From: Prochlorococcus marinus str. MIT 9211
GTDB lineage: Bacteria; Cyanobacteriota; Cyanobacteriia; PCC-6307; Cyanobiaceae
DNA: 64,000 bases
NCBI RefSeq assembly: GCF_000018585.1
Contig: NC_009976.1
Location: 677,982 to 741,981, forward strand
Direction of reading: 5' to 3'
A program made the position numbers and the translations under genes. Within the stretch, counting starts at the first letter, position 1. Every line of letters begins with the position of its first letter. This document shows, piece by piece, positions 37,837 to 55,461 of the stretch. The notes under the pieces were generated by a model. That model was not told the origin of the DNA. It saw only the letters and a list, made by a program, of their open reading frames with translations, and did not search any database.

Positions 37837-38244
37837 ATGGGATCCAGAAGAACCAAGATCGTAGCAAGCGTTTTCATGGGAATCAACGTGGCATTTACTC
37901 CCTTAGTTAATTCCCAAGCGTTATTTATTCAAGATCATCAATTGATAAGCCATAATGTGCACCCAGATAAATCTAAGGATGTACCATCAAGATTCGATAA
38001 TGAATCGTATGGCCACACCAGAACCACTGTTCCTTCTCAAACATCTCAATATCAATTGCGAGAATTATTTGGGTTGGGAACAGGTCGTCAGTTCTCAGGG
38101 TTTGGGTTCCCTGATGCAACTTCTAATTGGGACGCCGAATCCATACACATACTTTATGAAGAGGTAATGGATCGGCAAATCCTTGACCGGCCAATTCAAA
38201 CCAATGATATTCGGTCACCTTTCCAATCTTCTATTGGTGACTAG
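37837..38244 (+). CDS. Exported protein of unknown family, first gene of the pilus operon
   Basis: A 135-residue protein with an N-terminal signal-like segment (IVASVFMGINVAFTPLVNSQ, residues 8-27). The mature part is polar, with His and Ser/Thr-rich stretches and an RELFGLGTGRQFSGFGFPDA motif near residue 75. Its stop is followed four bases later by the secretin start, so the two are co-transcribed. By position it could be a pilotin or a periplasmic secretin helper, but nothing in the sequence identifies it, and no lipobox cysteine is seen. That role is a guess from context. Confidence 0.68.
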   Translation: MGSRRTKIVASVFMGINVAFTPLVNSQALFIQDHQLISHNVHPDKSKDVPSRFDNESYGHTRTTVPSQTSQYQLRELFGLGTGRQFSGFGFPDATSNWDAESIHILYEEVMDRQILDRPIQTNDIRSPFQSSIGD

Positions 38245-38248
38245 CTTT

Positions 38249-39976
38249 ATGAATAAGAAATATAAGGACAACTTGCTATTTCCATTAAATACCTTGTCTG
38301 TATTTAGCAGGTACTTCTCTGTACTCCTCATTATATTTGTATCTTCTTTTTCGGGAGATGTACTTCAAGCAAGTGGATCTAGGTCTAAGGATAAAACAAC
38401 ATCTAACTCAATTAATAAAAATAATTTAATTTTTGACGCAAGCAGAAAAAATCGGGGTCCCCAAGCTCCACCTCTTGGTGGAATGGCAGTTGGTGAAATA
38501 TTTATAAATAGTAGAGGATTTGTTGACTTAGAAGGTCCTAAGACAACTATTACTTTAGTAAAAGCAAGTCCAATAGATTCATTGCTTACATTATCTAGGA
38601 TTGCTAACTATGGATTCCTTCATGTGAAGGATAACGTAGATGAATCTTCTGATAAAAGTACAGATTTAGTAACTCTTTCATTTAGAGAAGAAAATTACCA
38701 AAAGGTATTGAATAGTATACTTTTAGCTGCTGGACTTCAAGGAAAGCAAGAAGGAAATATACTAATGGTCGGTAAAGATGTTTTAAGTAAAAGTTTTGGA
38801 CCTCAGGTTTCTAGGGTTTATCGCTTAAATCAAGTATCTGCTTCAGCAGCAGCAGACTATTTAGGAAGCTTAGGAGCAAAAATGACAAAAGTCTGGACTA
38901 AAACCAATATGTTTAGTGGATCTGAAAGTACTGATGGTATATCAACAGCTACAAATGGAAACCCAGATGAGATTTTCTCTTATACTTCTAATATAGGACC
39001 TCTTAGAGGCTTAATAGGAACTACTGATAGTCGACTTCAGACAATTACTCTGATTGGGGACCCATATTTAGTCTCAATTGCAGAAAAGTATTTAAAACAA
39101 TTGGATCTTCGCCAAAGACAAGTTGCTTTGTCAGTAAAGGTAATAGATGTACTTTTAAACAATACTACTGATATGAAGAACGCATTCGAATATGGAATTG
39201 GGGATAACTACATTATTAATTCAGAGTCTAAAGGATTGATGTATATGTTTGGTAATAAGTCATTCTCTCCAACTGATTTTTCTGTCACAGATTCATTTTC
39301 TCTAGCAAGTAGGAAGTTTATGGGTTGGTTTAGATCTAAGGTCCTAACCAATAATGCAAAAATACTTGCTAACCCCACTTTGATTCTGGGTGAAAGTCAG
39401 GAAGAGATACTTGGTGGATCAGAAGTATCTGGATCTCTAGGTTTAGGCGACTCAACTATTGGACGACCTTGGGCGAATGAAGGTTTTGTAAAAGTAGGTA
39501 CATCTGTTGTTACTAATTACACTATTTCTAGTGCTGAGGATGGTTCAACTTTATGCGAGCCTCAGACTGATATTGCAGGAATAACTTTTGGAGCAAAAGT
39601 CCATAAAATTGATGATAATGGTTATGTAACATTTAGCCTTAGCCCTAATATATCTGCAGTATCTGAGACACAATCAATAGGTGACTGTGGAAATATATCT
39701 ACCTTAAGCATTAGACGTCTTGATACAGGTAACATAAGAGTTCGAGATGGAGATACTCTTGTTTTGACTGGTGTAATAAAAGAGGATGATACAAAGGCAA
39801 TTACTAAGACACCCGTCCTGGGTGATATCCCATTGTTTGGAAGATTATTTCGAACCAACTCTACTGTGAGAAAAAAGAGTGAACTTATTATTATGGTTAC
39901 CCCAAAAGTTATAAAAGACAGCTTAACTTATAGTAAAACTAATGATACTACGTTATCTGATGTGAATAATAGATGA
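38249..39976 (+). CDS. pilQ: Type IV pilus secretin
   Basis: The secretin forms the outer-membrane ring through which the pilus passes. I choose ATG 38249 (MNKKYKDN), four bases after the previous stop; an earlier frame start at 38183 would overlap that gene. A signal peptide covers roughly residues 20-42. Domain order: N0/STN-like region (SLLTLSRIANYGFLHV near 105), N1-type module ending in LKQLDLRQRQVALSVKVIDV, then the secretin core with LTNNAKILANPTLILG near 365 and the signature VRDGDTLVLTGVIKEDDT followed by VPVLGDIP-like TPVLGDIPLFGRLFR near 525-545. At 575 residues it is shorter than many cyanobacterial PilQ, with fewer N-terminal AMIN domains. Confidence 0.92.
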   Translation: MNKKYKDNLLFPLNTLSVFSRYFSVLLIIFVSSFSGDVLQASGSRSKDKTTSNSINKNNLIFDASRKNRGPQAPPLGGMAVGEIFINSRGFVDLEGPKTTITLVKASPIDSLLTLSRIANYGFLHVKDNVDESSDKSTDLVTLSFREENYQKVLNSILLAAGLQGKQEGNILMVGKDVLSKSFGPQVSRVYRLNQVSASAAADYLGSLGAKMTKVWTKTNMFSGSESTDGISTATNGNPDEIFSYTSNIGPLRGLIGTTDSRLQTITLIGDPYLVSIAEKYLKQLDLRQRQVALSVKVIDVLLNNTTDMKNAFEYGIGDNYIINSESKGLMYMFGNKSFSPTDFSVTDSFSLASRKFMGWFRSKVLTNNAKILANPTLILGESQEEILGGSEVSGSLGLGDSTIGRPWANEGFVKVGTSVVTNYTISSAEDGSTLCEPQTDIAGITFGAKVHKIDDNGYVTFSLSPNISAVSETQSIGDCGNISTLSIRRLDTGNIRVRDGDTLVLTGVIKEDDTKAITKTPVLGDIPLFGRLFRTNSTVRKKSELIIMVTPKVIKDSLTYSKTNDTTLSDVNNR

Positions 39977-39980
39977 AATC

Positions 39981-40685
39981 ATGGCTAATCTTATGAATAA
40001 CTATTCGTCAATTGACGTATTGAGAGCAAGAAGAACTAACTCTAGAAAAAACAGATCTTATTTTAACGCTACTAAAAAGTTAGTTAGGAAAGGAAGTTAT
40101 TTAGGAATTGGTATTATCACTATAGTAATCTCTTCTTTTATTCTTATTTATTCAAGAATAATGCTGTATGAGAGGGAAAAAACTAGTCTTGAAAGTTATG
40201 TTAGAGAATATGATTTATTAGAGAAGAAGCTGAATGTTGAATCTAATAGGATGAAGGATTTAGCAAGTTTTAATTCCAAGTTAGTAAAGGACATAGCTAA
40301 TATAATTTCCAACTCGGCTTTTCTAAAAGAAATTAGTAACATAATCCCTTCAGGTATTAAATTAACCTCTCTTTCTATAAAAGGTGGTAAAATTGTTTTA
40401 GAGGGATTAGCAGTTGAGGATAAAGGAGTTGAGGCTATTAATAGGTTTGTTATAAAATTAGCCAGTTCGAAATTCTTCAAGCCAGCTATTATTATTGATA
40501 ATATTAAAAATGAAGGTCAACTGGCAAGTTTAGACGAAGGCGATGGATTTAACTTGAGGTTTAAAATTCTTGGAGAAGTTAGTTCAGAGGTGACTCCATT
40601 AGACAAGTTAACTTTATTAGAGTTGGGATCATATGGTATGGCTAATAGGATTGATTATCTGGAATCCCAGGGGCTTAATCAATGA
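39981..40685 (+). CDS. pilN: Type IV pilus alignment protein PilN
   Basis: PilN is an inner-membrane bitopic protein that binds PilM in the cytosol and pairs with PilO. The 234-residue protein has a short cytosolic N-terminus containing SSIDVLRARRTNS (the part that would contact PilM; the usual form is INLLP), a single span (LGIGIITIVISSFILIYSRI, residues about 39-58), a coiled coil (about 62-110, ESYVREYDLLEKKLNVESN) and a ferredoxin-like domain with SGIKLTSLSIKGGKIVLEG near 127. It lies four bases after pilQ and overlaps pilO by four bases. The call rests on architecture and context; sequence is divergent. Confidence 0.78.
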   Translation: MANLMNNYSSIDVLRARRTNSRKNRSYFNATKKLVRKGSYLGIGIITIVISSFILIYSRIMLYEREKTSLESYVREYDLLEKKLNVESNRMKDLASFNSKLVKDIANIISNSAFLKEISNIIPSGIKLTSLSIKGGKIVLEGLAVEDKGVEAINRFVIKLASSKFFKPAIIIDNIKNEGQLASLDEGDGFNLRFKILGEVSSEVTPLDKLTLLELGSYGMANRIDYLESQGLNQ

Positions 40686-41389
40686 AAGGTGATCTATTAA
40701 CTGAAAAATCTACGAATCGAATTCTTACTCCTGAAAGAGCATCCTTTTATATACCTATAATAACTTCTGCTTCATTATCAATCATTCTTTTATTTTCATT
40801 AGTAGTTCCCTTCACTGTTAATATGAACAAGACATATTATGAACTTAAGGAATATAAAAGAAAGAAATTAGAGTATAGCAAATTAGAAAACCAGTATGCT
40901 ATTATTAATAGTAAGTATAATCAATTAAGCTCAACCAAGAATCAGATTATAACTTTGTTGGCAGGCGAAAATAGTTTAGACACTTTGCTCGCAAAGATTA
41001 ATACTATTTGTTCTAATAACTTTGTTCAGATAGTAAGCTTAAAGCCTGGAAAGATTGAGAGATATGTAGCACCAGTACCTACCCCAGAAAGCAAGAAATC
41101 AAAACGAAGAAAATCTAGAAGAAAGAAAAAGTCCAATACTAAAAAAGTACTCTCCACTAAATTAGACCCATTTTTATCAGAAGGAATAGAAAAATATTCA
41201 GCAGATTTAGTTCTTTCTGCTTCCTTTAATAATATTCTTGAATTTATACGTGACCTTGAAAATATGGAGAATATAATTCTTACAAAGGATTTATCCTTTA
41301 CTTCAGACTCGGTAAGTTCTGATGATGATACAAGCTTGTTAAATATTCAATTCAAAATTATTGCTTATGGTAAGCAATTAAGACTTTAA
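40682..41389 (+). CDS. pilO: Type IV pilus alignment protein PilO
   Basis: A 235-residue partner of PilN. One span near residues 22-42 (IPIITSASLSIILLFSLVVP) leads into a coiled coil (YYELKEYKRKKLEYSKLENQ near 54) and a periplasmic domain. An inserted very basic segment (SKKSKRRKSRRKKKS at about 138-152) is unusual for PilO. The later IEKYSADLVLSASFNNILEF and GKQLRL match the closing part of the family. ATG 40682 overlaps the pilN stop (ATGA). Identification is by topology, size and position. Confidence 0.78.
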   Translation: MKGDLLTEKSTNRILTPERASFYIPIITSASLSIILLFSLVVPFTVNMNKTYYELKEYKRKKLEYSKLENQYAIINSKYNQLSSTKNQIITLLAGENSLDTLLAKINTICSNNFVQIVSLKPGKIERYVAPVPTPESKKSKRRKSRRKKKSNTKKVLSTKLDPFLSEGIEKYSADLVLSASFNNILEFIRDLENMENIILTKDLSFTSDSVSSDDDTSLLNIQFKIIAYGKQLRL

Positions 41390-41404
41390 ATATATAGATA
41401 AATT

Positions 41405-41857
41405 ATGAGTTATTTGTATGCTGGGATGGGTATAGCTATGATGAGTGGTATAGTAGCTATGCTTCAAATAGCATATAATATTAATAATCTTAGTCCAATT
41501 AATTATCAAGTAGAATCCAATTATCAAAAGGAAACCTTAGCTATAGAGTTTGATCTTGAATCACTAATCGCTATTGAAGAGATTAAATCAGATACTGAAG
41601 AGATAGATAATATTTGCGACGAGATAATATCGAGATCTTCTAGATCAGGCTATTTGTTAGATCCTTCAAATACCGATATATCCGACAATTATGGATTCCT
41701 AGATGATAGATTTTCAGATTCATGTATTGTAGTTAATGCAGATATAAGACATAGAGTAATTATTTCTCATAATAATGATGAATATAATTATTACTCATGT
41801 ATTTATGATCCATTCTCTATTTATACTAACTACTGTACTTTTGAAGAGATAGATTAA
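41405..41857 (+). CDS. Pilin-like protein without the prepilin cleavage motif
   Basis: A 150-residue protein with a hydrophobic N-terminal helix (LYAGMGIAMMSGIVAMLQIA, residues 4-23) and an acidic, Asp/Ser/Tyr-rich remainder with about four cysteines (NICDEI, DSCIVV, YYSCIYD, NYCTFEE). The layout is like a minor pilin, but no Gly-Phe-Thr-Leu/Glu+5 leader is seen. The family is not recognised. It lies 15 bases after pilO, followed two bases later by the next small gene, so it belongs to the pilus operon. Confidence 0.62.
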   Translation: MSYLYAGMGIAMMSGIVAMLQIAYNINNLSPINYQVESNYQKETLAIEFDLESLIAIEEIKSDTEEIDNICDEIISRSSRSGYLLDPSNTDISDNYGFLDDRFSDSCIVVNADIRHRVIISHNNDEYNYYSCIYDPFSIYTNYCTFEEID

Positions 41858-41859
41858 TA

Positions 41860-42081
41860 ATGATTCAATCACTTGTAGGAGCTATTATTATGTCTATGGC
41901 CACAGCCTCACTTTTAATTGCAATACAAGTTGGCGAAGGAGCTCTGAATAATTCCAAGCGTTTAGCTTTATCCAGGCATGAGAAGTTAATTATCAATAGA
42001 GCTGGTTATTCTGATACCCAGAAAATCAAGAATCTTAAGTTAGAGATCTATACCCATATAGAACAACTTTTGGAAGATTAA
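41860..42081 (+). CDS. Short pilin-like protein
   Basis: A 73-residue protein with an N-terminal hydrophobic helix (QSLVGAIIMSMATASLLIAI, residues 3-22) and a short polar tail (RHEKLIINRAGYSDTQKIKN). The QSLVGAI start resembles the mature N-terminus of minor pilins (GxSLVExxx), but the usual Glu at +5 is Gly here and there is no leader peptide. Lack of Glu5 is known in GspK-type tip pseudopilins; that parallel is only suggestive. It lies two bases after 41405-41857 and 24 bases before the next prepilin. Confidence 0.6.
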   Translation: MIQSLVGAIIMSMATASLLIAIQVGEGALNNSKRLALSRHEKLIINRAGYSDTQKIKNLKLEIYTHIEQLLED

Positions 42082-42105
42082 ATAGATGAGTAAAAACTAT
42101 AAATT

Positions 42106-42639
42106 ATGAAATATCGAATTAATCATAATCTTCTACGTAATAAGGGAATGACTCTTCCTGAAGTGGTTCTTTCTGTCGCTATGCTATCTGCATTTTCTGC
42201 AGTTTTTGTAATAGTTACACAATTTACTGCATCTTTCTATAAGCCTAGATCTCGACCAGTGGGAGTAGAGCCCTATGATTTTATTAATGACTATAATACT
42301 TTACTTATTAAAATGGACAGAATTTCTTACATACTTAATCAACCTGGCTATTCAAAAGAGGAAATATTAGACTTGAATTGTACTGATAAACCTTATGGAC
42401 CTTATGACGACGATGGTTGGGACTTGCCTGGAGCTGATATACCGAAGACTCCAGTTGGGTATAAGATATGCATAAAACCAAGCTCGGATATGCCTGAAAG
42501 TGATTTGGTCGAATTAATTTCTAATAAGGAAGGAGCCAAGCCAGGGATTTACATACTTTATGCTATTCCAGTTAATGGAGTATCTGGAGAATCTTTGCCT
42601 GTTAGGCGTATTTTCTGCAGACCACAACCTTTTTGTTGA
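42106..42639 (+). CDS. Minor prepilin
   Basis: A 177-residue type IV prepilin. The leader MKYRINHNLLRNKG (14 residues) ends in the Gly of the PilD cleavage site, followed by mature MTLPEVVLSVAMLSAFSAVF with Glu at +5. The mature domain has several cysteines (LNCTDK, ICIKPS, FCRPQPFC at the very end), with the C-terminal pair able to form the usual pilin disulfide loop. It is probably a minor (tip or priming) pilin because the main pilin gene is elsewhere in the locus. pilM follows within about ten bases. Confidence 0.85.
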   Translation: MKYRINHNLLRNKGMTLPEVVLSVAMLSAFSAVFVIVTQFTASFYKPRSRPVGVEPYDFINDYNTLLIKMDRISYILNQPGYSKEEILDLNCTDKPYGPYDDDGWDLPGADIPKTPVGYKICIKPSSDMPESDLVELISNKEGAKPGIYILYAIPVNGVSGESLPVRRIFCRPQPFC

Positions 42640-42647
42640 AAAGTATT

Positions 42648-44519
42648 ATGGCCACTACAGACCTTACTCGGAAAATTTCATCTTTAACCCTAAAAGATAT
42701 ACTTAAAAAATTACAAGATTATAGAAAGCAGATTTCTCATAGAGTTGTACTCATTGACTTCAGAGTTGATGAGATAAATATAGCTGTTGCTAGTTCTGGC
42801 GATAAAAACAATATAAATTTTAATAAGTTCGTTCGAATTGACATTCCACCAGAGGCTTTGGATAAGTCTATCCCAACAGATACTAATCTGATGGCAGAAC
42901 TTCTTAAGGATGTCCTTGAAGAGAATGGTGTTTTATCTCTAAAATGCTCAATAGTTTTGTCATCTGACACTACCTATACAAGACTTATTGATATTCCTTC
43001 TGACTTAAACGATCAGCAAGCTTATAAATATGTTTCTGACCCTTCTTCTGTTCTCCAAATACCTATACCTTTGACTAAATCAGATTTCGATATAAGTTCT
43101 ACTTCGTTCCATCCTAAAAACATTAATGGAACTACACTTAAAAAGTATTTTTTAAGCTCAATTCCAAAGAAGTCTAGCGATACAATAATATCTACATTGT
43201 TTTCTGCTGGTCTTGATGTATGTACTATTGATTTCAATTTTCTATGCCAATTGCGCCTTATAAATAATCATATAAGTTCATTAGGAGATAATAATTACAT
43301 CGTTTTACTAGAACTTGTAGGAGAATGTACGCACATGATATTGGCTGATAGCTCAGGCCCTATATTTATTGATCGCCTAGCCTCAATAAAGAATTATAAT
43401 GACATCTCCTATAATACCAAGGATCTCTATGAATCTTCTTCAGTAAAAGATAATGGCTCTCCTTCTAGCAAAAGATCTATGAAAATATCTAAGCTTGATC
43501 TTCGTGTTTTAGTAAGAGAATTAAAAAAATCAATTCGTTTGTTTTTTAAAGAAAATTCCTTAAAAGGTACTGTAAGTGTTTACCTCTCTGGAGTAAACAG
43601 CCAACACGAGGATATTGTTAACTCTTTAGGTGAATCATTAAACCTACCAGTACATTTAATCTCACCAGTCCATTCCCCAGGTATTGGCAAAGTAAATTTT
43701 GACCCTACAAAATTTTCACCTCAAGGTATCTCTAGATTACTTGGACTTGGCTTATCTTTGATTGATCAGAGATCATCATCATATAAGACTCACTCCGTTA
43801 ATTCAAATATAGTCGAATCCTACATTCCAGATAAGCTAAGAATAATTAGCGCATTAGATAATTCTAAATCTGACCCTTCATTTAAGAATGTAAACAAAAC
43901 CAACTTAATTCCTAAGCAAGGTAAATCAAACCTCATCGATCTATCGAATCAATCTTATAATAATCAACAAATATCAGAAGAGATTACTAGTACATCCATA
44001 CAGCAATTAAACTCTAAACAGCCTCTTGAAAATAAGCCTTTTGACACTATAGATAAACCTTCTATACCAACTCTTGCTTCTAGTACTAATAATCCTTTAT
44101 CTAGTACTAAAAATAATAGCATTTCAGCATCTAATTTGGAAAATCCAAATTTAAAATATACTAAAGAATCTAATCACAAAATAATCCCCTCTGGTAAAGA
44201 CATTCCTCTTGAGCTCAGAGACAATGAAGGACTAACAAGTTCAGAAACAAAGCCTATAGTTAATTCATCAATTTCAATTAATAATGAAGGCTTCAAAACA
44301 TCTGAAGGACCCCACTCAGAGAATCTCTCTGAGGAAACTTCTAAGTTTTCAATGGATGCCTCTTTTTTAGGTATAGATCAAGATATTTCAGAATCAATGG
44401 CATCTCAGGAAGAAATCACATTAACTAATGAATCAAAGGATTTAGTGGATGATAAAGATGATGCAACTGAATTTAGGATGGATACTACTTTTCTCGATAT
44501 AGAAGAAAATAATGATTGA
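42648..44519 (+). CDS. pilM: Type IV pilus actin-like ATPase PilM with long disordered tail
   Basis: PilM is the cytosolic actin-like protein that binds PilN. The start is taken as ATG 42648; a TTG at 42633 would overlap the gene before. Residues about 30-385 cover the actin-like fold, with HRVVLIDFRVDEINIAVASS near 31 (phosphate-binding strand), LVGECTHMILADSSGPIFID near 225 and GTVSVYLSGVNS near 308. Typical PilM ends near 360 residues; here another ~235 residues follow, poor in order and rich in Ser, Asn, Lys and Thr, ending in two copies of a motif (FSMDASFLGI and FRMDTTFLDI). Those copies may be docking peptides. Actin-like identity is fairly good, tail function unknown. Confidence 0.78.
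   Translation: MATTDLTRKISSLTLKDILKKLQDYRKQISHRVVLIDFRVDEINIAVASSGDKNNINFNKFVRIDIPPEALDKSIPTDTNLMAELLKDVLEENGVLSLKCSIVLSSDTTYTRLIDIPSDLNDQQAYKYVSDPSSVLQIPIPLTKSDFDISSTSFHPKNINGTTLKKYFLSSIPKKSSDTIISTLFSAGLDVCTIDFNFLCQLRLINNHISSLGDNNYIVLLELVGECTHMILADSSGPIFIDRLASIKNYNDISYNTKDLYESSSVKDNGSPSSKRSMKISKLDLRVLVRELKKSIRLFFKENSLKGTVSVYLSGVNSQHEDIVNSLGESLNLPVHLISPVHSPGIGKVNFDPTKFSPQGISRLLGLGLSLIDQRSSSYKTHSVNSNIVESYIPDKLRIISALDNSKSDPSFKNVNKTNLIPKQGKSNLIDLSNQSYNNQQISEEITSTSIQQLNSKQPLENKPFDTIDKPSIPTLASSTNNPLSSTKNNSISASNLENPNLKYTKESNHKIIPSGKDIPLELRDNEGLTSSETKPIVNSSISINNEGFKTSEGPHSENLSEETSKFSMDASFLGIDQDISESMASQEEITLTNESKDLVDDKDDATEFRMDTTFLDIEENND
44346..44504 (+). repeat. Duplicated C-terminal peptide motif in PilM
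   Basis: The codons at 44346 onward encode FSMDASFLGID and those at 44472 onward encode FRMDTTFLDIE, about 42 residues apart, in an otherwise low-complexity tail. The shared pattern is F-x-M-D-x-x-F-L-x-I. It suggests a short linear binding motif present twice. Confidence 0.7.
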
Positions 44520-44557
44520 TTAACCCTATTGCATAACAAATGCCACGATAATTTGTA

Positions 44558-45715
44558 TCAACCCATTTTATTGATAAGATCGAACATAGGTAGGTATAAA
44601 GCTACAACAATTGTTCCTACAATAATAGCTACTACAAATATTACTAGTGGTTCCATCGCTTTAGTTAGAGCTGAAACTGTTTCCTCTACTTCACGCTTAT
44701 AAAAGTCCGATAAATTTTCTAGCATAAATGATAACTCCCCTGTTTCTTCGCCAATCCTTATCATTGAGAACATTAGCCTAGGCATGACTTTAGATAGTGA
44801 AAGCGCATAGCTTAATGACTGCCCCTGTTGAATCATCGTCACTGACTTTTTAATTGCAATTTTGATTATTTCATTGCCCGATGCAGAAAGACATCTTTCT
44901 AAACTTTCTACGAGTGGTACTCCTGAGTTAACTAAGGTACTTAATGTGTCACTCATTGATGCAATTTCTGATCTAAGAATTAAATCACCAAATAGTGGTA
45001 CTTTAAGTATTAATCTATCTATAACTTCCCGGCCTGACTTGTTAGAATAAATAGTCTTTATAAAGTAAATTACTATAAATATTGTGATTGGAGCCCCAAC
45101 AAGAAACCCTGTTGATGTAACTATATTAGACAGTAACAACATAAATGCTGTTAGCCCAGGTAATTCAGCACCTAAGCCATCAAATAATTCCTTAAATGTT
45201 GGAACTATAAATATCAATAAAGCTAAGCTAATAGTAACTGCAAGAACTAAAACAACTAAAGGGTATACCAAAGCACCAGTGATTTGTCCTTTGAGCTTTG
45301 CATTGGCTTCAAGCAATAAGGCTATCCGCTCAAGAACTTTAGATAGTATTCCACCAGCTTCTCCAGCTTCAATTAAACCGATTGTTATCGGTGCGAATAT
45401 TCTTGGATATATTCTCAGGCAGCTTGAAAGTTCTTGGCCACCACTCAATCTTCTTGATATATCAAATATACAGGCAGCAAATTTTTTGTTTATCATATTC
45501 TCTGAAAGTAATTCGAGACCCTGGGCTAAAGGAACACCACTTTGAAGCATTACAGAAAGTTGTCTAAAGAAAACTAAAAGATCTTTTTGATTTACCTTTA
45601 ATTTTGAATTAGGTGCAAGATAGCTATTACTTAAAGTGGATTTTCTATTATTAGAATTATCTGCGGAATCATTTTTTAAAGTGGAGTTGTTATTAGCCGA
45701 GCCATATTTAGCCAT
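44558..45715 (-). CDS. pilC: Type IV pilus platform protein PilC
   Basis: PilC is the inner-membrane platform on which the PilB and PilT motors act. The 385-residue protein has two GspF domains: VFFRQLSVMLQSGVPLAQGLELL near residue 50 and ASMSDTLSTLVNSGVPLVESLE near 250, each followed by a span (ALVYPLVVLVLAVTISLALL near 147 and VIFVVAIIVGTIVVALYLP near 358). The N-terminal 40 residues are Asn/Ser-rich and short. The gene ends 11 bases before nothing downstream on this strand: it converges on pilM (38 bases between stops) and starts 11 bases after pilT ends. Identification is strong. Confidence 0.93.
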   Translation of the reverse strand: MAKYGSANNNSTLKNDSADNSNNRKSTLSNSYLAPNSKLKVNQKDLLVFFRQLSVMLQSGVPLAQGLELLSENMINKKFAACIFDISRRLSGGQELSSCLRIYPRIFAPITIGLIEAGEAGGILSKVLERIALLLEANAKLKGQITGALVYPLVVLVLAVTISLALLIFIVPTFKELFDGLGAELPGLTAFMLLLSNIVTSTGFLVGAPITIFIVIYFIKTIYSNKSGREVIDRLILKVPLFGDLILRSEIASMSDTLSTLVNSGVPLVESLERCLSASGNEIIKIAIKKSVTMIQQGQSLSYALSLSKVMPRLMFSMIRIGEETGELSFMLENLSDFYKREVEETVSALTKAMEPLVIFVVAIIVGTIVVALYLPMFDLINKMG

Positions 45716-45726
45716 TCTATATCCTC

Positions 45727-46770
45727 TTATTCGTCTATAGCCTTAGTTACAGATGCCTTACTTAAAGCCAGTTCCTTAGTAATCAATCCTTGGGCAACTA
45801 AATCATTTAGACATTGCTCTAATGTATTCATTCCATCATTGCTACCTGTTTGCAGTTGTGAATAGATTTGGCTTACTTTTCTCTCTCTTATAAGGTTACC
45901 TATTGCAGGTGTATTTATTAGCAGCTCGTAGGCAAGTGATCTTTTCCCTAAAGTGTTCTTACATAATGTTTGAGACATAATTCCAGCAAGTGATGTTGAG
46001 ACTTGCAACCTAGCTTGTTCTTGTTGATCACCAGGAAAAACATCTACGATTCTTTCTACTGTTTTTGCAGCAGAGGATGTATGTAATGTACCCAAAACTA
46101 AATGTCCAGTCTCTGCTGCAGTTATGGCCAGTTGTATTGTTTCAAGGTCTCTCATCTCTCCTATATAAATAACATCTGGATCTTCCCTAAGCGCAGCTTT
46201 TAAAGCTCTTGCGAAGGAATCTGTATCTCTTTTTACCTCTCTTTGATGAATGATTGAGTTTTCTGTATGTTCGAAAATAAACTCAATAGGATCTTCAATT
46301 GTAAGTATATGCCTTTTCTGTGTCTCTAGTATGCAATTTATAAAAGCAGCTAATGTTGTTGATTTCCCTGATCCTGTGGGTCCTGTACACAAAACCATAC
46401 CTCTTTCTAATTTTGATAACTTTATAAAAGGCTCTGGAAGGCCTAGATCTTGCCATTTAGGAAGGTTGTCTGGTAATAATCTTAAAGTTAAACATCTCTT
46501 TTCATTTGCAATGTAAGCATTGATTCTTAATCTTGAAAGACCTTCTATACTAGTTGAACTATCTAAATCTCCTAATTCATTAAATTCATTTACTTTTTCT
46601 TTTCCTAGTAACTCCATCATCAGGTTATCCATATCTTGGCTCCGCAACTTTTGACCACTTATCTTAATATCAGAATTTACCCTAACTGCAATTGGAGAAC
46701 CTTCTTCAAGATGTATGTCTGAAGAACCTGCTTTCATGGCATAGCTAACAATTTCTCTGGAGATGCTCAT
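45727..46770 (-). CDS. pilT: Pilus retraction ATPase
   Basis: PilT is the hexameric ATPase that pulls the pilus back. In 347 residues it shows the N-terminal GSSDIHLEEGSPIAVRVN near residue 15, Walker A GPTGSGKSTTLAA near 128, Asp box ILTIEDPIEFIFEH near 153, Walker B ALREDPDVIYIGEMRDLETI near 189 and the HLVLGTLHTSSAAKT His box near 216. The AIRAALREDPD form and the C-terminal GMNTLEQCLNDLVAQGLI are PilT-type rather than PilB-type. It lies between pilB and pilC. Presence of PilT implies dynamic, retractable pili, as needed for DNA uptake or twitching. Identification is strong. Confidence 0.95.
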   Translation of the reverse strand: MSISREIVSYAMKAGSSDIHLEEGSPIAVRVNSDIKISGQKLRSQDMDNLMMELLGKEKVNEFNELGDLDSSTSIEGLSRLRINAYIANEKRCLTLRLLPDNLPKWQDLGLPEPFIKLSKLERGMVLCTGPTGSGKSTTLAAFINCILETQKRHILTIEDPIEFIFEHTENSIIHQREVKRDTDSFARALKAALREDPDVIYIGEMRDLETIQLAITAAETGHLVLGTLHTSSAAKTVERIVDVFPGDQQEQARLQVSTSLAGIMSQTLCKNTLGKRSLAYELLINTPAIGNLIRERKVSQIYSQLQTGSNDGMNTLEQCLNDLVAQGLITKELALSKASVTKAIDE

Positions 46771-46786
46771 GGTTTATCTATTTAAG

Positions 46787-48439
46787 TTAGTCATCTGATT
46801 TACAAACCCTCTCAAGCTCTGAAAGAGTAGTAAGTTGTTCCTTGACTAATTCTACTCCATATTTCATTAAAGTAAGCATTTCATTATTATCTACAGCCAT
46901 TTCCTCGATTTCCTTATCAGTCTTATTGCTAGTTATAGCATTTTGGATTGGTCTATTTATTACTAATAACTCATAAGCACCAACCCTACCTTTATATCCT
47001 GTCCCAGAACAGTGACCGCAGAGAGTTCCTTCTCTCTTTCGCTGTTCTTTTTCTTCGCTTGAAAGTACATTTGCATACCTTATAGGTGTATTAGGGCGTA
47101 TACCAGTTATTTGAGACTCATTATTATTAATTGGTCTTTGAACACTACACTCTGGACATACCCTCCTCAATAAACGCTGCGCTAATACGCCTCTAACTGA
47201 GGCGTTTAATTTATATTTAGGGACTTCCATGTCAAGTAGCCTTGTTAATGAACTGGAAGATGTATTTGCATGCAGTGTTGTAAATACTAAATGTCCAGTT
47301 TCTGCTGCATCCATAGAAGATTCTGCTGTTTCTGGATCCCTCGTTTCTCCAATTAATATAACGTCAGGATCTTGACGAAGGAATGTTCGAAGTAAATTTG
47401 CAAATGTTTGATTTTTGGCTCTATTAACTTGATGTTGCATTATATCCCCCGAAAGATCGTATTCAATAGGGTCTTCTGCTGTTACAATTTTAAGTTCTCC
47501 ATTGTCTTTTTCTCTCAATGCTGCTGCTAGAGTTGTTGATTTGCCAGACCCTGTTGGTCCAGAAACTATAACTATACCATTTGTGTTATTTATTATCTTT
47601 CTAAATTCATTCCTGACTTTCTCAATATGTATTAGAACATCTAAATTTAGTACTGAGGCATCGCTGTTTAGAATCCTAAGTACCATTCCTTCCCCATATT
47701 TACCAGGAGCAGTTGAGCATCTGAACTCCATTCGATTACCTTCATATTGTCTTAGGATCTTTCCATCTTGACTAGCCCTTCTCTCTGCTATATCCATATG
47801 CGCCATGTTTTTTAAACAAGCTATTAATTGAATACCAGCCCTCTTTGGCATAGATAAGAACTTTTGCATAACTCCATCTCTTCTTACCCTTATTTTATAA
47901 TTATCGATCTTTGGCTCTATATGTATATCAGATACATTTGACCTGCATGTATTTATCAATATCATTCCAGCTGCTCTTTGTGTTTTGCTTTCTAGCATTT
48001 CATTACTTAGATCCTCAGTCTCATCGACTAATTCTTCTTCTTCTATATCATCAAATTCCAAAGAGAAATCATCATCATTACCTTCAGTAGCAGTATCTTG
48101 TAAGGCTGCTATTACTGCCTCTTCAGTAAATTCAGAAATTTCAATACCTTCTCCACTTATAAACCTTTCCTCAGCTGCCAAATCAAGTATTTCTTTAATT
48201 TTCTCTGGTGATCTCTCTACAAATTTACATTCTAATCCTGATTGATTTATCCTTTCCTTAATTGTGTTTCCAATCGTTCCTAAGAAAACAATATTACCAA
48301 CGGCTATTGTGATAACCCCAGGACTAGGTGGTAATGATGGTTCAATACCAAGAGGCACAACTAAGTTATCTCTACACCACTGGAGTGAAAAATATTGATC
48401 TACTAAATTCCTTATAGAAGTAACTGAGAATTGAGACAT
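46787..48439 (-). CDS. pilB: Pilus extension ATPase
   Basis: PilB powers pilus extension. The 550-residue protein has an N-terminal MshEN-like region (about 1-150, with an acidic stretch near 125-140), then Walker A VSGPTGSGKSTTLAAAL near 297, Asp box TAEDPIEYDLSGDIMQHQV near 323, Walker B LRQDPDVILIGETRDPETA near 358 and the His box LVFTTLHANTSSSSL near 384. The four-cysteine zinc site typical of extension ATPases is present (VCPECS near 427 and LCGHCSGTG near 470). Its ATG overlaps the stop of the upstream Cys-rich prepilin by one base. Identification is strong. Confidence 0.95.
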   Translation of the reverse strand: MSQFSVTSIRNLVDQYFSLQWCRDNLVVPLGIEPSLPPSPGVITIAVGNIVFLGTIGNTIKERINQSGLECKFVERSPEKIKEILDLAAEERFISGEGIEISEFTEEAVIAALQDTATEGNDDDFSLEFDDIEEEELVDETEDLSNEMLESKTQRAAGMILINTCRSNVSDIHIEPKIDNYKIRVRRDGVMQKFLSMPKRAGIQLIACLKNMAHMDIAERRASQDGKILRQYEGNRMEFRCSTAPGKYGEGMVLRILNSDASVLNLDVLIHIEKVRNEFRKIINNTNGIVIVSGPTGSGKSTTLAAALREKDNGELKIVTAEDPIEYDLSGDIMQHQVNRAKNQTFANLLRTFLRQDPDVILIGETRDPETAESSMDAAETGHLVFTTLHANTSSSSLTRLLDMEVPKYKLNASVRGVLAQRLLRRVCPECSVQRPINNNESQITGIRPNTPIRYANVLSSEEKEQRKREGTLCGHCSGTGYKGRVGAYELLVINRPIQNAITSNKTDKEIEEMAVDNNEMLTLMKYGVELVKEQLTTLSELERVCKSDD

Positions 48440-49731
48440 TATTTCTGTTTATACCAACATCCGCAAATAGAAGCTTTCTTTCTATACTTCTTATCTTTAT
48501 TACATTTTTTAGTGGGATTAGAAGGACAGCATTTTAAACCTTGATTATCTGTATATGTTTTCTTAGGACATATATTGCCTCTTTTATCTGTTTCTTTCTC
48601 TTTCTTTTGCTTATTTCGATTGTCTTCCTCTCTCTTCTTCTTATCTGCTTCTATTTGTTTTAATTTAGCGTCATAGTCAACAGAGTTCAATATTTCCCCA
48701 TCATACACAAATATCTTATTGCCACAAGGCTCTTTAATGCCATCAGCTGGCTTAATTACATATTCTCCCTTATGACTAGTTGTTTTTATTCTAGATCTAT
48801 CTTTTTCGCATTGAGACTTCTTCATGTCTTCATTTTTCTCTTCCCATTCTTCAAAACTTGTTAATATGTCTCCAGAGTGAAACCAATAGAGTTGACCTCC
48901 ACATTGAGGGTCTAAAGTTTGACCTTCTCCTTCTTCACTTTTTTTATTATTCTTTTGTTTAGCCATATCTTTAGTCCAGTCTTTACATTGATCACCATAT
49001 TTCTTTTGTCTAGCTACTTCTACCTCATCACAACTTCTATAAGATTTACCTTCAAATAAACAAATTCCTTGGTCTTCACAAGCGCCCATATCTTCATCAT
49101 TTACTGGTGCCCTCCATGTTTTTACTGGACCAGTTGCCTTGTTTATTTGTTTGTTATTGAAGTTTGTAGTGCATTTGTTTCTTTCTTCTGCAATTAGATT
49201 AAGACGATCAATTCTGGCTTGTGCTTCTTCACTTAAACCACAATTTTCTCCAGCCCATCCTCTGCATGAAGGTAAGCTTCTTGGGTTAGGTGAATCTGAA
49301 GGAGTTGCACCTTTAAATACTTTTACTGAACCTGTTTTATCATCTTCATAAATTCGAAACTGCATTTCATAGAGCAGATCTTTGTCCTTATTATTTAATG
49401 GTTTGACTGCTAGAGTCTCACAATTATTGTTTTTAGGATCTAATTGGTAACCCAGTGTCGCCAATTTCTGATCACTTAGGTACTCTGGTACTTTTTCTTT
49501 TAACTCAGTTATGTCTGTCGATACCCTGTATTGCCCAAGGCAATCTGCAGCATATGAATTCATCAATGCTTTGGTCTCTTCTATCCTAGACAATTTAACT
49601 GTATTAATTATGTTAGGTATAGCAAAACTGCTTAAGGCAGATAATACAGCCATTACAACTGCTACTTCTATTAGGGTAAAACCATTGTCTGGCTGATTCT
49701 TATTACTTAGTGGATTGTTTTTTTGTTTCAT
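48439..49731 (-). CDS. Large Cys-rich prepilin with three internal repeats
   Basis: A 430-residue prepilin. Leader (17 residues) ends in Gly17; mature start is FTLIEVAVVMAVLSAL with Glu at +5, so PilD should process it. The pilin-like part reaches about residue 150. Beyond it are three related units of about 60 residues (roughly 187-248, 249-307, 308-365), each with a Cys, a central CxxxxLFEG/LYWFHSG/IFVYDGE-type strand followed by S-x-x-E/D and a charged helix. A Lys/Glu-rich linker (366-385) and a final Cys cluster (LKCCPSNPTKKC, ICGCW) follow. About twenty cysteines suggest disulfide bonds outside the cell. An adhesive tip role is inferred; family not recognised. Confidence 0.8.
   Translation of the reverse strand: MKQKNNPLSNKNQPDNGFTLIEVAVVMAVLSALSSFAIPNIINTVKLSRIEETKALMNSYAADCLGQYRVSTDITELKEKVPEYLSDQKLATLGYQLDPKNNNCETLAVKPLNNKDKDLLYEMQFRIYEDDKTGSVKVFKGATPSDSPNPRSLPSCRGWAGENCGLSEEAQARIDRLNLIAEERNKCTTNFNNKQINKATGPVKTWRAPVNDEDMGACEDQGICLFEGKSYRSCDEVEVARQKKYGDQCKDWTKDMAKQKNNKKSEEGEGQTLDPQCGGQLYWFHSGDILTSFEEWEEKNEDMKKSQCEKDRSRIKTTSHKGEYVIKPADGIKEPCGNKIFVYDGEILNSVDYDAKLKQIEADKKKREEDNRNKQKKEKETDKRGNICPKKTYTDNQGLKCCPSNPTKKCNKDKKYRKKASICGCWYKQK
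48637..49173 (-). repeat. Three protein-level repeats in the Cys-rich prepilin gene
   Basis: Residues 187-248, 249-307 and 308-365 of the prepilin align around GICLFEGKSYRSCDEVE, GQLYWFHSGDILTSFEEWE and NKIFVYDGEILNSVDYDAK, each preceded by a Cys about 35 residues earlier and followed by a charged helix. DNA-level identity is low, so the duplication is old. Confidence 0.68.
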
Positions 49732-49914
49732 GAATTAATCTTTAAATGAATAGTTTAAGATTTTTTTTACGATACATCCTCTTTTATACACCTAGCAATA
49801 TGAGGCTCTAATGTCAACTTTAATGTAACTTATTTATATTTATTTTCTGGCCTGTGCTCTAGTCAGAAGGAATTAACGTGGTATAGGTTTCGGTTGATTA
49901 ATAACAAGCCATAG

Positions 49915-50430
49915 CTAGTAGCTATAAGAAAGCTGATATTGTTTGCCTTTAAGAGATAGCGTAACATTTTGATTGGCTACATCAATTCTTTTTACTTTTA
50001 CTCCCATAGGTAACAATTGAGTTGTTTTCCCTCCTATTTGACCTTCTTCTAATGAGCCGCTTCTTTTTCTATACTCTACAAGAGCGAATTTTTTCTTCTC
50101 GGTAGCAATGATACCTTTTAACTTAAGGCTTGGGGATAAGATACCGCTAGATGAATCAGAATATTCAGAGAAAGGATCTGATTTACCAAATGTTCCAGAT
50201 GATTGAAGGTCAGTAGAGGTTTCTAATTTTAAGAACTGATTTTTTTTAGGAGTTTCAGTAGGAGTAGTAATTTTACCTATACTTTTAACTTTAAGAGCTT
50301 TTGCTTGATTACTTCTTTGAGGGATATCAATCTTGAAGTTATCAACCTTTTCTTTCGATGTACAACCAGTCAATGCTAATAATAGGGTTAAGGTAGTGAT
50401 TCTTGAAATTAAGTAGATTGTCTTTCTCAT
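49915..50430 (-). CDS. PilP-like pilus lipoprotein
   Basis: A 171-residue predicted lipoprotein: signal peptide with lipobox LTGC (Cys near residue 23), then a Ser/Lys-rich linker and a C-terminal small beta domain with LSPSLKLKGIIATEKKKFAL near 96, GQIGGKTTQLLPMGVKVKRI near 129 and VTLSLKGKQYQLS near 154. This is the pattern of PilP/GspC HR-type domains, which link PilNO to the secretin. PilP is normally encoded with pilMNOQ; here it stands between two pilin genes. The assignment is from pattern and context, and a sequence search should be able to confirm it. Confidence 0.62.
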   Translation of the reverse strand: MRKTIYLISRITTLTLLLALTGCTSKEKVDNFKIDIPQRSNQAKALKVKSIGKITTPTETPKKNQFLKLETSTDLQSSGTFGKSDPFSEYSDSSSGILSPSLKLKGIIATEKKKFALVEYRKRSGSLEEGQIGGKTTQLLPMGVKVKRIDVANQNVTLSLKGKQYQLSYSY

Positions 50431-50507
50431 AGATATTTAAATAATCTATTGATAGATTGTAGTTCTTTCTATTATTAACTAATTAAATAAAATGAATAAT
50501 ATGCTCA

Positions 50508-51014
50508 TTACCAGGTCCATTGGTTATTGCCTTCTCCCTGAGGCTCTATACATGTAAGGTATTCATTCGCACCTTCCTCATCAGCTCCATCGCATTCTTT
50601 TACAATTTCTCCAGTGGCCTGATCATACGTAATTGCAAAAGTTGGAAGAACTCCGGCGGCGTGTATACCTTCAGCTTCAAAACATCCCTCTTGATCTTCC
50701 GCTAAAGGTTCTATTGCGTATCCTGTGTAATCACCATTAAAGGCATTTATCTCAGCAAATTCCGGTATATTTTCAGGATCATCTAGATAAGCTACTACAC
50801 ATTCTTTAATACCGTTAACCAAGCCATTCTTAACAGCGGAAATTTGAGCCTTTGATTGGACTGATATAAAGTTTGGGATTGCTACTGCTGACAAAATCGC
50901 CAGAACTGCAATTACAACAACAAGCTCAACTAATGAAAAGCCTTTGTTACCAGGCTTAGAACTTAAAACCTTCCTTACTCTTGGGTTTTTTAGATATTCA
51001 TGTAATAGGTTCAT
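50508..51014 (-). CDS. pilA: Major type IV pilin (PilA)
   Basis: A 168-residue prepilin. A long leader of 25 residues (ending KPGNKG) precedes the mature FSLVELVVVIAVLAILSAVA with Glu at +5; long leaders are usual in cyanobacterial PilA. The helix continues to AIPNFISVQSKAQISAVKNG, and the globular part is acidic (about 20 Asp/Glu) with four cysteines (KECVVAY, EGCFEAE, KECDGAD, LTCIEPQ) suited to disulfide loops. The closing WTW is unusual. It is the best candidate for the main fibre subunit because of size and independent 5' region of about 90 bases shared with divergent pilD. Confidence 0.88.
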   Translation of the reverse strand: MNLLHEYLKNPRVRKVLSSKPGNKGFSLVELVVVIAVLAILSAVAIPNFISVQSKAQISAVKNGLVNGIKECVVAYLDDPENIPEFAEINAFNGDYTGYAIEPLAEDQEGCFEAEGIHAAGVLPTFAITYDQATGEIVKECDGADEEGANEYLTCIEPQGEGNNQWTW

Positions 51015-51107
51015 TTAAAAAAACTAGAGAAACTAGTAAAGTCTATGCTCTTAATATGAATGAAAGACTGTTTTATGTCAACAAGTACTATTTATTTTAA
51101 ATGATCA

Positions 51108-51911
51108 ATGGATATTCCAAGCTATCTTTGCTTTGTGATAGGAGCTTGTTTTGGCAGCTTTATTTCGGTTGTAGCTAGACGACTCCCTCAAAATGAGTCT
51201 CCAGTATTTCCCAGAAGCTATTGCCCTAACTGCACAGTAAAGATAAAATGGTTTGACAATATTCCTATACTTAGTTGGATACTTCTAAGAGGAAGATGTC
51301 GTAATTGCAGCTATAAAATAAGTCTTGTCTATCCTTTTGTTGAGTTTTTTACAGGCGTTTTATTTGTATTGTGTAAATATAGTCATAAGATTAACACCAT
51401 AAATATTAATGACGTAACTTATCTATTGTTAGGTTGGTGTCTTGTTACAGTACTATTCTCCCTATCTTTAATAGATATTTATTCTTTATGGTTACCTGAA
51501 TCATTGCTTAGGCTTGGCGGCATCTTCGGGATTATTCATGCTTTTAGTTATCTTTATAGTTACTCTAATTATTATATTGTAGTGGATTATTTATTCGCTT
51601 CAGTTATGAGTTATTACTTCTTTGAAGTGATCCGTTTAAGTGCAAGAAAAATATTAAAGAAGGATGCACTAGGAGATGGAGACTCAAAGCTTATTGCAAT
51701 GCTTGGTCTATGGAATGGAATAATAGGATCTTATTTTACAATAGTTCTAGCTTTTGTATCCGCTTCAATTTATGCAATTGTAGCTATATCATTTAAACAA
51801 TTAAAGCTCGGTCAAGCATATCCACTAGGTCCGTTTATAGCATTGTCGGGACTTTTTGTTTGGATATTCGGTAATGACTTTCTTATGGTTCAACTTCTAA
51901 AGCTAAGTTAA
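51108..51911 (+). CDS. pilD: Prepilin peptidase / N-methyltransferase
   Basis: PilD cleaves prepilin leaders after Gly and methylates the new N-terminus. The 267-residue membrane protein starts with GACFGSFISVVARRLPQNES near residue 12, has the zinc-type CPNC (near 39) and CRNCSYK (near 64) pairs of the methyltransferase loop, and the two aspartates of the aspartyl protease: LSLIDIYSLWLPE near 126 and the signature ALGDGDSKLIAMLG near 184. Seven or eight spans are seen. It is divergent from pilA and should process the four prepilins of this locus. Identification is strong. Confidence 0.94.
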   Translation: MDIPSYLCFVIGACFGSFISVVARRLPQNESPVFPRSYCPNCTVKIKWFDNIPILSWILLRGRCRNCSYKISLVYPFVEFFTGVLFVLCKYSHKINTININDVTYLLLGWCLVTVLFSLSLIDIYSLWLPESLLRLGGIFGIIHAFSYLYSYSNYYIVVDYLFASVMSYYFFEVIRLSARKILKKDALGDGDSKLIAMLGLWNGIIGSYFTIVLAFVSASIYAIVAISFKQLKLGQAYPLGPFIALSGLFVWIFGNDFLMVQLLKLS

Positions 51912-52153: not shown

Positions 52154-53506
52154 TTAGAACTTAAAGGTAGTTTCAACGACTGCGCCTGTTTCATCTTCAC
52201 CACCAGCTACCTCTTGAGTAAAGAGACCAGGTCGTACAGAGATGCCATCGGCAACATCCCAGTTGTAGTAAACCTCGAAGGCTGCAAGTTCATTGGTTTC
52301 ATCATCAATGACTTGATAAGCAGCACTAAGGGTTCCTGGGCCCCAACCATCGTAGTCAGCAGCTATGTACCAAGAGTCATTGTCGGCAGCACCTTCATTC
52401 TCTTGGGTGTCATAACCTGCACTGAAGCGTGGGAAATCTTCTGGCTCCCAGTAGAGACCCCATCCCCATGAGTCGTAGTCAGTAGTGTCTGAGCCGTTTT
52501 TGTCTCCGGAAGACAGGATGACTCCACCACCCCAACCGTCTCCGTCGTAACCGATAGATCCGGTTATAACATCGTCTCCTTCTCTAGTTAAAATACCATT
52601 GCTGGCATCATCACCATCGTCAAAGACTGCGGAAATTGAAGCATTCCACTTGTTGTCGAAGAAGTAAGTAGCACCAACACCAGGACCTTCTTCAGTCTCG
52701 GCTCTGGAGTACTCATGAGGTGTTATATAAAACTCAGCTGAATAGCTTGAAAGCTTAGCTGAAATAATATCATCCTGATCCATCAAAGGACCTGCAGTAA
52801 CTCTGAAGTCACCGACTGGGAATGAATAGGTAAGCTTATCAATCTGAAGCTGATTTGTTGTTCCCTCTGCGCTATCTAAAACGTTTAGGGGCTGGGTGCC
52901 TGCATTACCAGCAATAACTGCTACATCAAGTGAATCTTCTCCAGAAAAACTTGTAGACATATCAATGCCATAGGCATAGATAGAATGAAGTTTTTCGCCA
53001 GAAGTAGAGTCGTCAACAGCACCTACGGTGAATGTTGCACTACCTGAAATTAATGTGGTGTTAGCAAATGTACCAGCATTTACTTCGTTAAGTCTGTATT
53101 CAAGCCCATCAACACGACCTTTGAGAATGGCCATTTCTGAACCAAATTCGTTGGATAGACGTGCAGCATCTTGACTTAGACCTTGGCCACTAGCCACAAG
53201 TCCGCCTTCAAGGCATGAATTTATAAGTGAGGCAGCTTCATAACGAGTAAGAGCTTGACCTGACTTAAGGTTTTGACTGTAGGCATTACCTACACAACCA
53301 TAGCTTTCGCTTAGGTTTTGGAGAGCTGTATAAGCCCAATCCCCTGGAACAACGTCTGAGAACTGAGCTGTGGTTTCAACATGCTGCTCTTCTAGGCCGG
53401 CATAATTACCAACATCTTGGATGTTGACCTCTGCTGCATTTGCAGCTAAAGGAGCCATTAAACCCAAAGCAGCAGGAGCTACCAGCAAGCGCTGGAAAAG
53501 CTTCAT
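52154..53506 (-). CDS. som: SLH-domain outer-membrane porin (Som/OprB-like)
   Basis: A 450-residue porin. Signal peptide residues 1-24 (ending in LAANAAEV); an S-layer homology domain near residues 48-105 (FSDVVPGDWAYTALQNLSES and GQALTRYEAASLINSCL) anchors it to peptidoglycan-linked polymers. A short coiled coil (RLSNEFGSEMAILKGRVDGL near 118) precedes a beta-barrel with alternating aromatic/Gly strands and a final TGAVVETTFKF, where the C-terminal Phe is typical. It lets small solutes enter. The mRNA leader contains GTGTGAGGA just before the ATG, matching the Yfr1 sRNA seed, so it may be repressed by Yfr1. Confidence 0.92.
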   Translation of the reverse strand: MKLFQRLLVAPAALGLMAPLAANAAEVNIQDVGNYAGLEEQHVETTAQFSDVVPGDWAYTALQNLSESYGCVGNAYSQNLKSGQALTRYEAASLINSCLEGGLVASGQGLSQDAARLSNEFGSEMAILKGRVDGLEYRLNEVNAGTFANTTLISGSATFTVGAVDDSTSGEKLHSIYAYGIDMSTSFSGEDSLDVAVIAGNAGTQPLNVLDSAEGTTNQLQIDKLTYSFPVGDFRVTAGPLMDQDDIISAKLSSYSAEFYITPHEYSRAETEEGPGVGATYFFDNKWNASISAVFDDGDDASNGILTREGDDVITGSIGYDGDGWGGGVILSSGDKNGSDTTDYDSWGWGLYWEPEDFPRFSAGYDTQENEGAADNDSWYIAADYDGWGPGTLSAAYQVIDDETNELAAFEVYYNWDVADGISVRPGLFTQEVAGGEDETGAVVETTFKF

Positions 53507-54109: not shown

Positions 54110-54298
54110 CTAACTAGACTTATGTTCTATTTCCTTACGCTTCTCGTGCATATCTTCTAACTCATCATAAATAAGCTTTAATTTATTTTTTATCATTTCG
54201 GCTGACTGTAAATTGTCAAGAGACTGCATTACCTTTATAAGGTTATCTTTAGCATCGACAATTCGCCTGCACTCTTGACTTCCTGCCTCATATGACAT
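54110..54298 (-). CDS. Small coiled-coil protein, hypothetical
   Basis: A 62-residue soluble protein (MSYEAGSQECRRIVDAKDNL at its start) with heptad-like helices (LIKVMQSLDNLQSAEMIKNK, then LIYDELEDMHEKRKEIEHKS). One Cys at residue 10. It is likely a helical hairpin or dimer. No family is recognised; size and composition suit lineage-specific picocyanobacterial small proteins. Confidence 0.58.
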   Translation of the reverse strand: MSYEAGSQECRRIVDAKDNLIKVMQSLDNLQSAEMIKNKLKLIYDELEDMHEKRKEIEHKSS

Positions 54299-54466
54299 AA
54301 AAAAACCTATAAAAACTTAATCTATAAACTCTACTCAGGCTTTCTGTATCTGTTGATACATTGATCATATAGGAATGATCGGGATCTAGTTTTCATTTTT
54401 AGATTTTCGCTTTTATCTTTGGGAATCGACCCGGGATTTAAGCAAAAACAGGGCTCAGGAATAAAA

Positions 54467-54553
54467 CTATCCTATTGTTACAGCCACCAAAAAGGTAGTA
54501 CTCATAAGGATGAGACCAATTGAGGCCATAGCCGCTAGGAGTGATATATTCAT
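54467..54553 (-). CDS. Possible 28-residue single-span peptide
   Basis: A very short frame (MNISLLAAMASIGLILMSTT followed by FLVAVTIG) that is one complete membrane span, preceded by a plausible ATG context. Thylakoid complexes include such subunits, but this sequence matches none that I can recall (not PetG, PetL, PetM, PsbI, PsbM, PsbT, PsaM, PsaJ). Conservation in related genomes would be needed. Confidence 0.33.
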   Translation of the reverse strand: MNISLLAAMASIGLILMSTTFLVAVTIG

Positions 54554-54616
54554 TCGAAGAATTTAAATCTAAAGAAATTATAAGGAAAATCACTGCATTG
54601 TTTTTCTCAATCCAGA

Positions 54617-55216: not shown

Positions 55217-55233
55217 TAAATAAAAAATATGAT

Positions 55234-55425: not shown

Positions 55426-55461
55426 GGTTAAATTATAACAGTAATTATATTATAGATATAA

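Follow-up and report, generated by a model that had tools for sequence, protein, structure and literature searches.

Complete type IV pili (T4P) in Prochlorococcus are not new: T4P occur in about a quarter of marine picocyanobacteria, as published in 2021 (PMC7994388), with pilA1 carried by 33% of Prochlorococcus isolates (every LLIII and LLIV isolate among them) and by ~24% of single cells. In Synechococcus WH7803, the pilus keeps cells suspended and lowers grazing (PMC7994388). The PilA1 machine of WH7803 and Prochlorococcus MIT9313 and the T4P of Synechocystis PCC 6803 and S. elongatus (PMC12288463) are the closest described pili, and islands or tycheposons at tRNA genes (cited in PMC10872708) are a described setting for variable Prochlorococcus genes. 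Here we compare with them a T4P cluster of P. marinus str. MIT 9211, carried at 38249-51911 of a 64,000-nucleotide stretch of its complete genome (1,688,963 bp; positions 677,982-741,981; the whole stretch is called the window and its coordinates are used throughout). Sequence comparison places this cluster in a pilus lineage of its own, type I. In high-light Prochlorococcus, a single interval bounded by tRNA-Ser(TGA) and nrdJ houses type I or the canonical type II machine, in one or other of two orientations, and is pilus-free in sister strains.

Prochlorococcus is among the most abundant photosynthesisers and among the most streamlined, and the original prediction, made from the letters of this stretch in a strain that we take to be LLIII, found a complete T4P surprising enough to call for a selected use. 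Completeness and a selected use are supported, whereas the surprise was overstated, T4P having been published in Prochlorococcus together with a function (PMC7994388). All the components it named (secretin, PilN, PilO, PilM, PilC, PilT, PilB, PilD, PilA and further pilins, with both extension and retraction motors) are present together, open and above chance in Pfam and NCBIfam profile searches, by which families were assigned except for PilP, assigned by structure. The open reading frames (ORFs), with lengths in amino acids (aa), are the following:

37837-38244, plus strand: 135-aa ORF of no recognised family, just upstream of pilQ, conserved in its own genus only.
38249-39976, plus strand: pilQ, outer-membrane secretin (PF00263 1e-27, Secretin_N 3e-6; 75-81% identity in the genus).
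39981-40685, plus strand: pilN, alignment complex (PF05137 3e-8).
40682-41389, plus strand: pilO, alignment complex (PF04350 1e-5).
41405-41857, plus strand: x2, type I-specific protein with a single transmembrane segment and conserved cysteines, candidate minor subunit, kept in 15 type I loci.
41860-42081, plus strand: s, small 73-aa ORF with a hydrophobic start, recurring at the same place in type I loci.
42106-42639, plus strand: minor pilin, 177 aa, with a GMTLxE leader and a conserved FCRPxxxC end (TIGR02532 over cut-off in the genome search; alignment of 16).
42633-44519, plus strand: pilM, cytoplasmic actin-like ring, with a long low-complexity C-terminal tail (TIGR01175 2e-16, PF11104 1e-7).
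44558-45715, minus strand: pilC, inner-membrane platform (PF00482, T2SSF, 3e-55).
45727-46770, minus strand: pilT, retraction ATPase (TIGR01420, 421 bits against a cut-off of 319; Walker A GPTGSGKS).
46787-48439, minus strand: pilB, extension ATPase, short (550 aa), type I lineage marker (PF00437, T2SSE, 5e-100; clade in tree).
48439-49731, minus strand: 430-aa modular pilin, a pilin domain followed by a Cys-rich helix/hairpin array, candidate tip or adhesive subunit (N_methyl 1e-5; model confidence, pLDDT, 79; pilin Z score 7.9).
49915-50430, minus strand: pilP, a lipoprotein whose HR domain matches PilP (Z 9.1) and GspC (Z 10.4) in fold.
50508-51014, minus strand: pilA, major pilin with a GFSL leader (N_methyl 5e-8; type IV pilins in the PDB by profile).
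51108-51911, plus strand: pilD, prepilin peptidase (PF06750, A24_N, 6e-32; PF01478, Peptidase_A24, 5e-11).

By these matches the window from 38249 to 51911 is confirmed as a complete type IVa pilus machine with at least two minor pilins besides the major one: the secretin, PilC, PilB and PilM, N, O and P are encoded together, a retraction ATPase scores well over its cut-off, and a major pilin with a short leader, a GFxxxE motif and type IV pilin kinship is accompanied by a prepilin peptidase. The ORF at 37837-38244, where the originally described range begins, is separate and not secretin; the pilQ frame opens at TTG 38183, and ATG 38249 is most likely its start because orthologues in the same genus have 573-574 aa. 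The PilP-like assignment of the original prediction was borne out at the level of fold: sequence search with the PilP alignment found no solved relative, but a fold search matched residues 97-171 to the HR domains of PilP (2y4y) and GspC (3oss). Class III leaders were found in three ORFs of the window (PilA, the 430-aa modular pilin and the 177-aa GMTLxE pilin), and the two short ORFs beside the latter may be further minor subunits. In the modular protein the pilin domain spans residues 17-174 and is best matched by gonococcal pilin; the helix/hairpin units with conserved cysteines that follow had no clear structural match, only the pilin part being well tested. The frames of the pilus genes, including those for pilins and motors, are open rather than interrupted in close relatives, as the original prediction required, and the ratio of nonsynonymous to synonymous divergence (dN/dS) is low in machine genes (0.04 in pilB, for example, values being rough with dS near saturation). 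Purifying selection acts on this complete and intact gene set, and the machine has therefore been kept. The tail of PilM consists of near-identical tandem repeats in type I (L039 2-379, L040 1-366), and the contigs of three high-light genomes (G166, G251, G228) all end inside pilM.

Comparison of the window's PilB with 300 genomes of its family gave two classes, one of 61-89% identity in 23 genomes including its own, and one of ~43% identity, mostly longer ORFs, in most of the remaining genomes. We named the first class, that of the window's machine, type I and the second, canonical class type II. Nearly all type I neighbourhoods repeat the gene order of the window, whereas in those of type II a divergent pilBTC group lies next to pilMNOQ. 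In a PilB tree, type I forms one clade (Shimodaira-Hasegawa-like approximate likelihood-ratio support 100), apart from type II and other cyanobacteria, and among 386 genomes of the phylum no PilB listed from outside the family was more than 50% identical to the window's. The major pilins differ as well: all 19 aligned type I sequences read GFSL[IV]ELV[VI]V[IV]AVLA[IV]L, and in type II the corresponding motif of the major-type pilins is GFTLVELIVVV, with AFTL in one. In a published set, 6 of 48 PilA1 sequences had GFSLxE instead of GFTLxE, and five of those six came from Prochlorococcus (PMC7994388); this split probably marks the two machines. With its own gene order, short PilB and GFSL pilin, type I resolves in these comparisons as a monophyletic T4P lineage of its own, encountered in marine picocyanobacteria only. 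Its neighbour in the PilB tree is picocyanobacterial type II, but both branches are long (1.85 and 0.96), and the placement may reflect long-branch attraction.

Two convergent runs, pilQ-N-O-x2-s-minor pilin-M on the plus strand and pilA-P-modular pilin-B-T-C on the minus strand, meet at 44519/44558, and pilD diverges from pilA, just as the original prediction described with pilM last and PilP among the pilins. Its oddness is real, but by synteny the Q-N-O-...-M order is a recurring signature of type I and not a local peculiarity, and cyanobacteria commonly have pilP separated from pilMNOQ (PMC12288463). Compared with the PilA1 T4P of WH7803 and MIT9313 (PMC7994388), type I has the same set (Q, B, T, C, D, MNO, PilA and minor pilins), the same ecological group and the same patchy presence, but the WH7803 genes are scattered over the genome and the WH7803 pilin is GFTLxE. 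Identity to type I is ~43, 50 and 37% for the canonical-type PilB, PilT and PilC sampled here, which lie in clusters with the pilMNOQ order and no convergence of MNOQ and BTC. The T4P of Synechocystis and S. elongatus (PMC12288463) likewise have type IVa architecture, with pilBTC together, whereas their near-universal pilMNOQ is replaced in type I by Q-N-O-...-M with minor subunits inside, and type I PilB has 550 aa against ~670-690 in other cyanobacteria.

Solitary type I-like PilB genes without pilT or pilC also occur (L038 10841-12598, L035, L053, L054, L073, L075, L077), some of them with a pilin as neighbour or with tRNA-Ser or tRNA-Pro nearby; one in G219 is flanked by a partial and the full tRNA-Ser, as if it were a small element of its own. 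Viral carriage of the machine was considered and rejected, a scan of viral contigs having found no close PilB relative.

The high-light site was compared in 17 genomes of g18, the genus holding the high-light strains. Its interval is bordered on the left by a conserved block with tRNA-Ser(TGA) and on the right by a 64-aa ORF, an 88-aa ORF, nrdJ, a methyltransferase and prfC. Merely 884 bp separate the tRNA from the right block in G244. Other cargo fills the interval in G135, G151, G017, G210, G237 and G178, and also in G116, G263 and G287, which have a type II pilus elsewhere in the genome. A whole type II pilus lies there in G095 and G201, another type II sublineage in opposite orientation in G190, and type I in G166, G251, G228 and G219 (the left edge is not covered in G190, G166, G251 and G228). 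When G190 is compared with the type I carriers, proteins of the right flank share 90-97% identity, but PilB, PilT and PilC only 41-43, 51-54 and 35-38%. Type I stands beside nrdJ in seven named genomes (AG-402-N10, AG-459-E08, AG-418-K17, AG-355-P07, MIT 9201, AG-418-F16 and AG-422-K10), of which MIT 9201 is G228, counted in both sets, and the others are additional; tRNA-Ser is at the other edge of the cassette in AG-355-P07 and AG-422-K10, and at its edge in AG-892-J18, where the nrdJ side is beyond the contig end. Partial tRNA-Ser copies of 33-73 bp are found at the site in five genomes (G219, G210, G017, G201 and G263), a pattern typical of repeated integration. In having variable cargo next to a tRNA, with repeated tRNA fragments, in high-light hosts, the site resembles the Prochlorococcus islands and tycheposons cited in PMC10872708; here the cargo is a whole pilus machine. 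Between type I clusters and nrdJ, a TgpA-like transglutaminase with AAA-ATPase-like and other neighbours was seen in G251 (L039 7518-12024, minus strand) and G219 (L113 3904-8400), and related genes also stand beside type II clusters in L055 and L056.

The window's own copy, ~40 kb from nrdJ, lies in another variable interval:

26500-59400, no strand: variable interval holding the window's pilus, with syntenic ends at a purK-like gene (25208-26407) and a block at 54110-62048.

The same interval holds other genes in high-light genomes. A SomA-like porin (52154-53506, minus strand) adjoins the cluster in the window, and the type I clusters of G219 and AG-418-F16 likewise have a distant porin at their flank.

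Whether a strain has type I, type II or neither varies between closely related strains, as the synteny comparison showed. On a core tree of 30 genomes (rpoB-rpoC1-rpoC2; states I, IIa, IIb and none), pilus states need at least 13 changes, against a mean of 14.3 with shuffled labels (42 of 200 shuffles as low). Pilus type is largely decoupled from the core phylogeny. Sister pairs differ, for instance G095 (type II) and G244 (none), G287 (IIa) and G116 (IIb), and G129 (I) and G056 (none). These patterns suggest that whole pilus cassettes are swapped at tRNA-Ser/nrdJ by integration and recombination, perhaps aided by elements that use tRNA genes in these cells. Our overall reading, on balance the probable one, is that the window encodes a self-contained, retractable type I pilus that is exchanged as a cassette and serves as a suspension or anti-grazing fibre, not in ComEC uptake. 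A broader proposal is more tentative and slightly less likely than not: marine picocyanobacteria would have two T4P machines, of which type I, confined to them, moves as a cassette into tRNA-Ser/nrdJ-like islands, replacing or being replaced by the canonical machine, as a strain-level, surface-antigen-like trait selected by phages or grazers.

Several observations weigh against exchange. The 64-kb window contains no tRNA, so that its own copy, unlike tycheposons, is not at one, and the position of this copy is unchanged across the three genomes that make up its genus here. No recombinase, including the tyrosine recombinases of tycheposons, was seen with the pilus cassettes (not every ORF per site was searched with profiles), and no att repeat pair encloses a whole cassette. 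Moreover, type I subclades mostly follow genera in the PilB tree, and old descent with loss therefore explains part of the pattern. One could go further and suppose that the common ancestor of marine picocyanobacteria had both machines, with later losses and little cassette exchange; both types are clearly still present together in four Synechococcus genomes, and a second PilC fragment occurs in a fifth. We consider this doubtful in view of the two type II sublineages and type I found in the same tRNA-Ser/nrdJ interval, in two orientations and between flanks more than 90% identical, and of the core-tree sister strains that differ in type. At the high-light site, cassette exchange of the lineage has support; for the window's own copy it is no more than suggested.

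In the working machine PilD would process the prepilins, and PilB together with PilC would build the PilA fibre, whose tip probably contains the minor and modular pilins. PilMNOP would link the platform to the PilQ secretin, and PilT would retract the fibre. By analogy with the type II PilA1 pilus of WH7803, the fibre would be a drag, suspension and anti-grazing appendage, its exposed pilin part perhaps diversified against phages or grazers. Suspension and grazer defence are the most likely use, one we put forward tentatively, as a near-balanced judgement; the suspension proposed in the original prediction is retained to that extent, and it counts against this reading that the analogy is with the pilus of another lineage. 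An assay of a type I pilus was not found in the open literature searched.

An attachment fibre, binding particles, chitin or other cells with the 430-aa modular pilin as adhesin, is an unlikely main use. Such a large Cys-rich addition to a pilin is characteristic of subunits at the tip or with an adhesive role, the retained PilT would allow retraction under load, and the genome has an orphan pilin with beta-propeller repeats; yet no known adhesin fold was recognised in the 430-aa pilin, relatives tested use their pilus while planktonic (PMC7994388), and MIT9211 and SS120 neither grew on filters nor gave robust growth in pour plates (PMC8888907), a result that speaks little for life on surfaces. 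Outside the window, three further pilin-like ORFs lie at ~1.349 and ~1.364 Mb (L162 5710-6360, L163 4869-6587 and L163 6890-7477, all on the minus strand), one of which (572 aa) has beta-propeller (PD40) repeats behind its pilin leader; a tyrosine-recombinase-like gene is ~1 kb away. A type II cluster (L058 1360-2757, plus strand) encodes a 465-aa pilin that carries a fused von Willebrand A domain; it is likely to be an adhesive tip, and type I has no counterpart.

DNA uptake, another use named in the original prediction, fared worse. T4P machines take up DNA in other cyanobacteria (PMC12288463), but ComEC was found neither in the window's genome nor in any of 45 Prochlorococcus-type genomes searched, whatever their pilus state, against 11 of 13 Synechococcus, and it was detected in the S. 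elongatus control; in the window's genome the DprA model gave merely a sub-threshold fragment (18.2 bits against a cut-off of 29.6, in a 179-aa frame). Without ComEC and with no DprA above threshold, transformation-type DNA uptake by this pilus is unlikely, and a competence pilus very improbable. The search for Hfq (PF17209) was uninformative, with no match in 52 genomes or in the S. elongatus control.

Least probable of all is a type II secretion system with pseudopilins, for although the GspD and GspE models give the secretin and PilB slightly higher scores than do those for PilQ and PilB (none reaching its cut-off) and the HR fold is common to PilP and GspC, the profiles do not assign the set to such a system (GspD 101.8 bits against a curated cut-off of 351, GspE 376 against 630, GspG 28.9 against 88.9), PilT is present and over its cut-off, PilM, PilN, PilO and PilP are separate genes, and the PilA profile ranks Geobacter, Thermus, Pseudomonas and Neisseria pilins well ahead of GspG, which comes last.

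Neither the type I lineage nor its alternation with the canonical machine at a single site seems to have been described in the open papers searched, most subscription journals being outside that scope. If the two-machine reading is true, published pilA1 surveys mix two machines, with function shown for just one, type II. Near-matched natural strains with no pilus, type I or type II would then allow sinking, grazing, phage entry and attachment to be tested without genetics, and to our knowledge Prochlorococcus has none. If 14-kb machines of two lineages are indeed swapped at one site while the core stays nearly fixed, pili would be a rapidly selected ecological trait.

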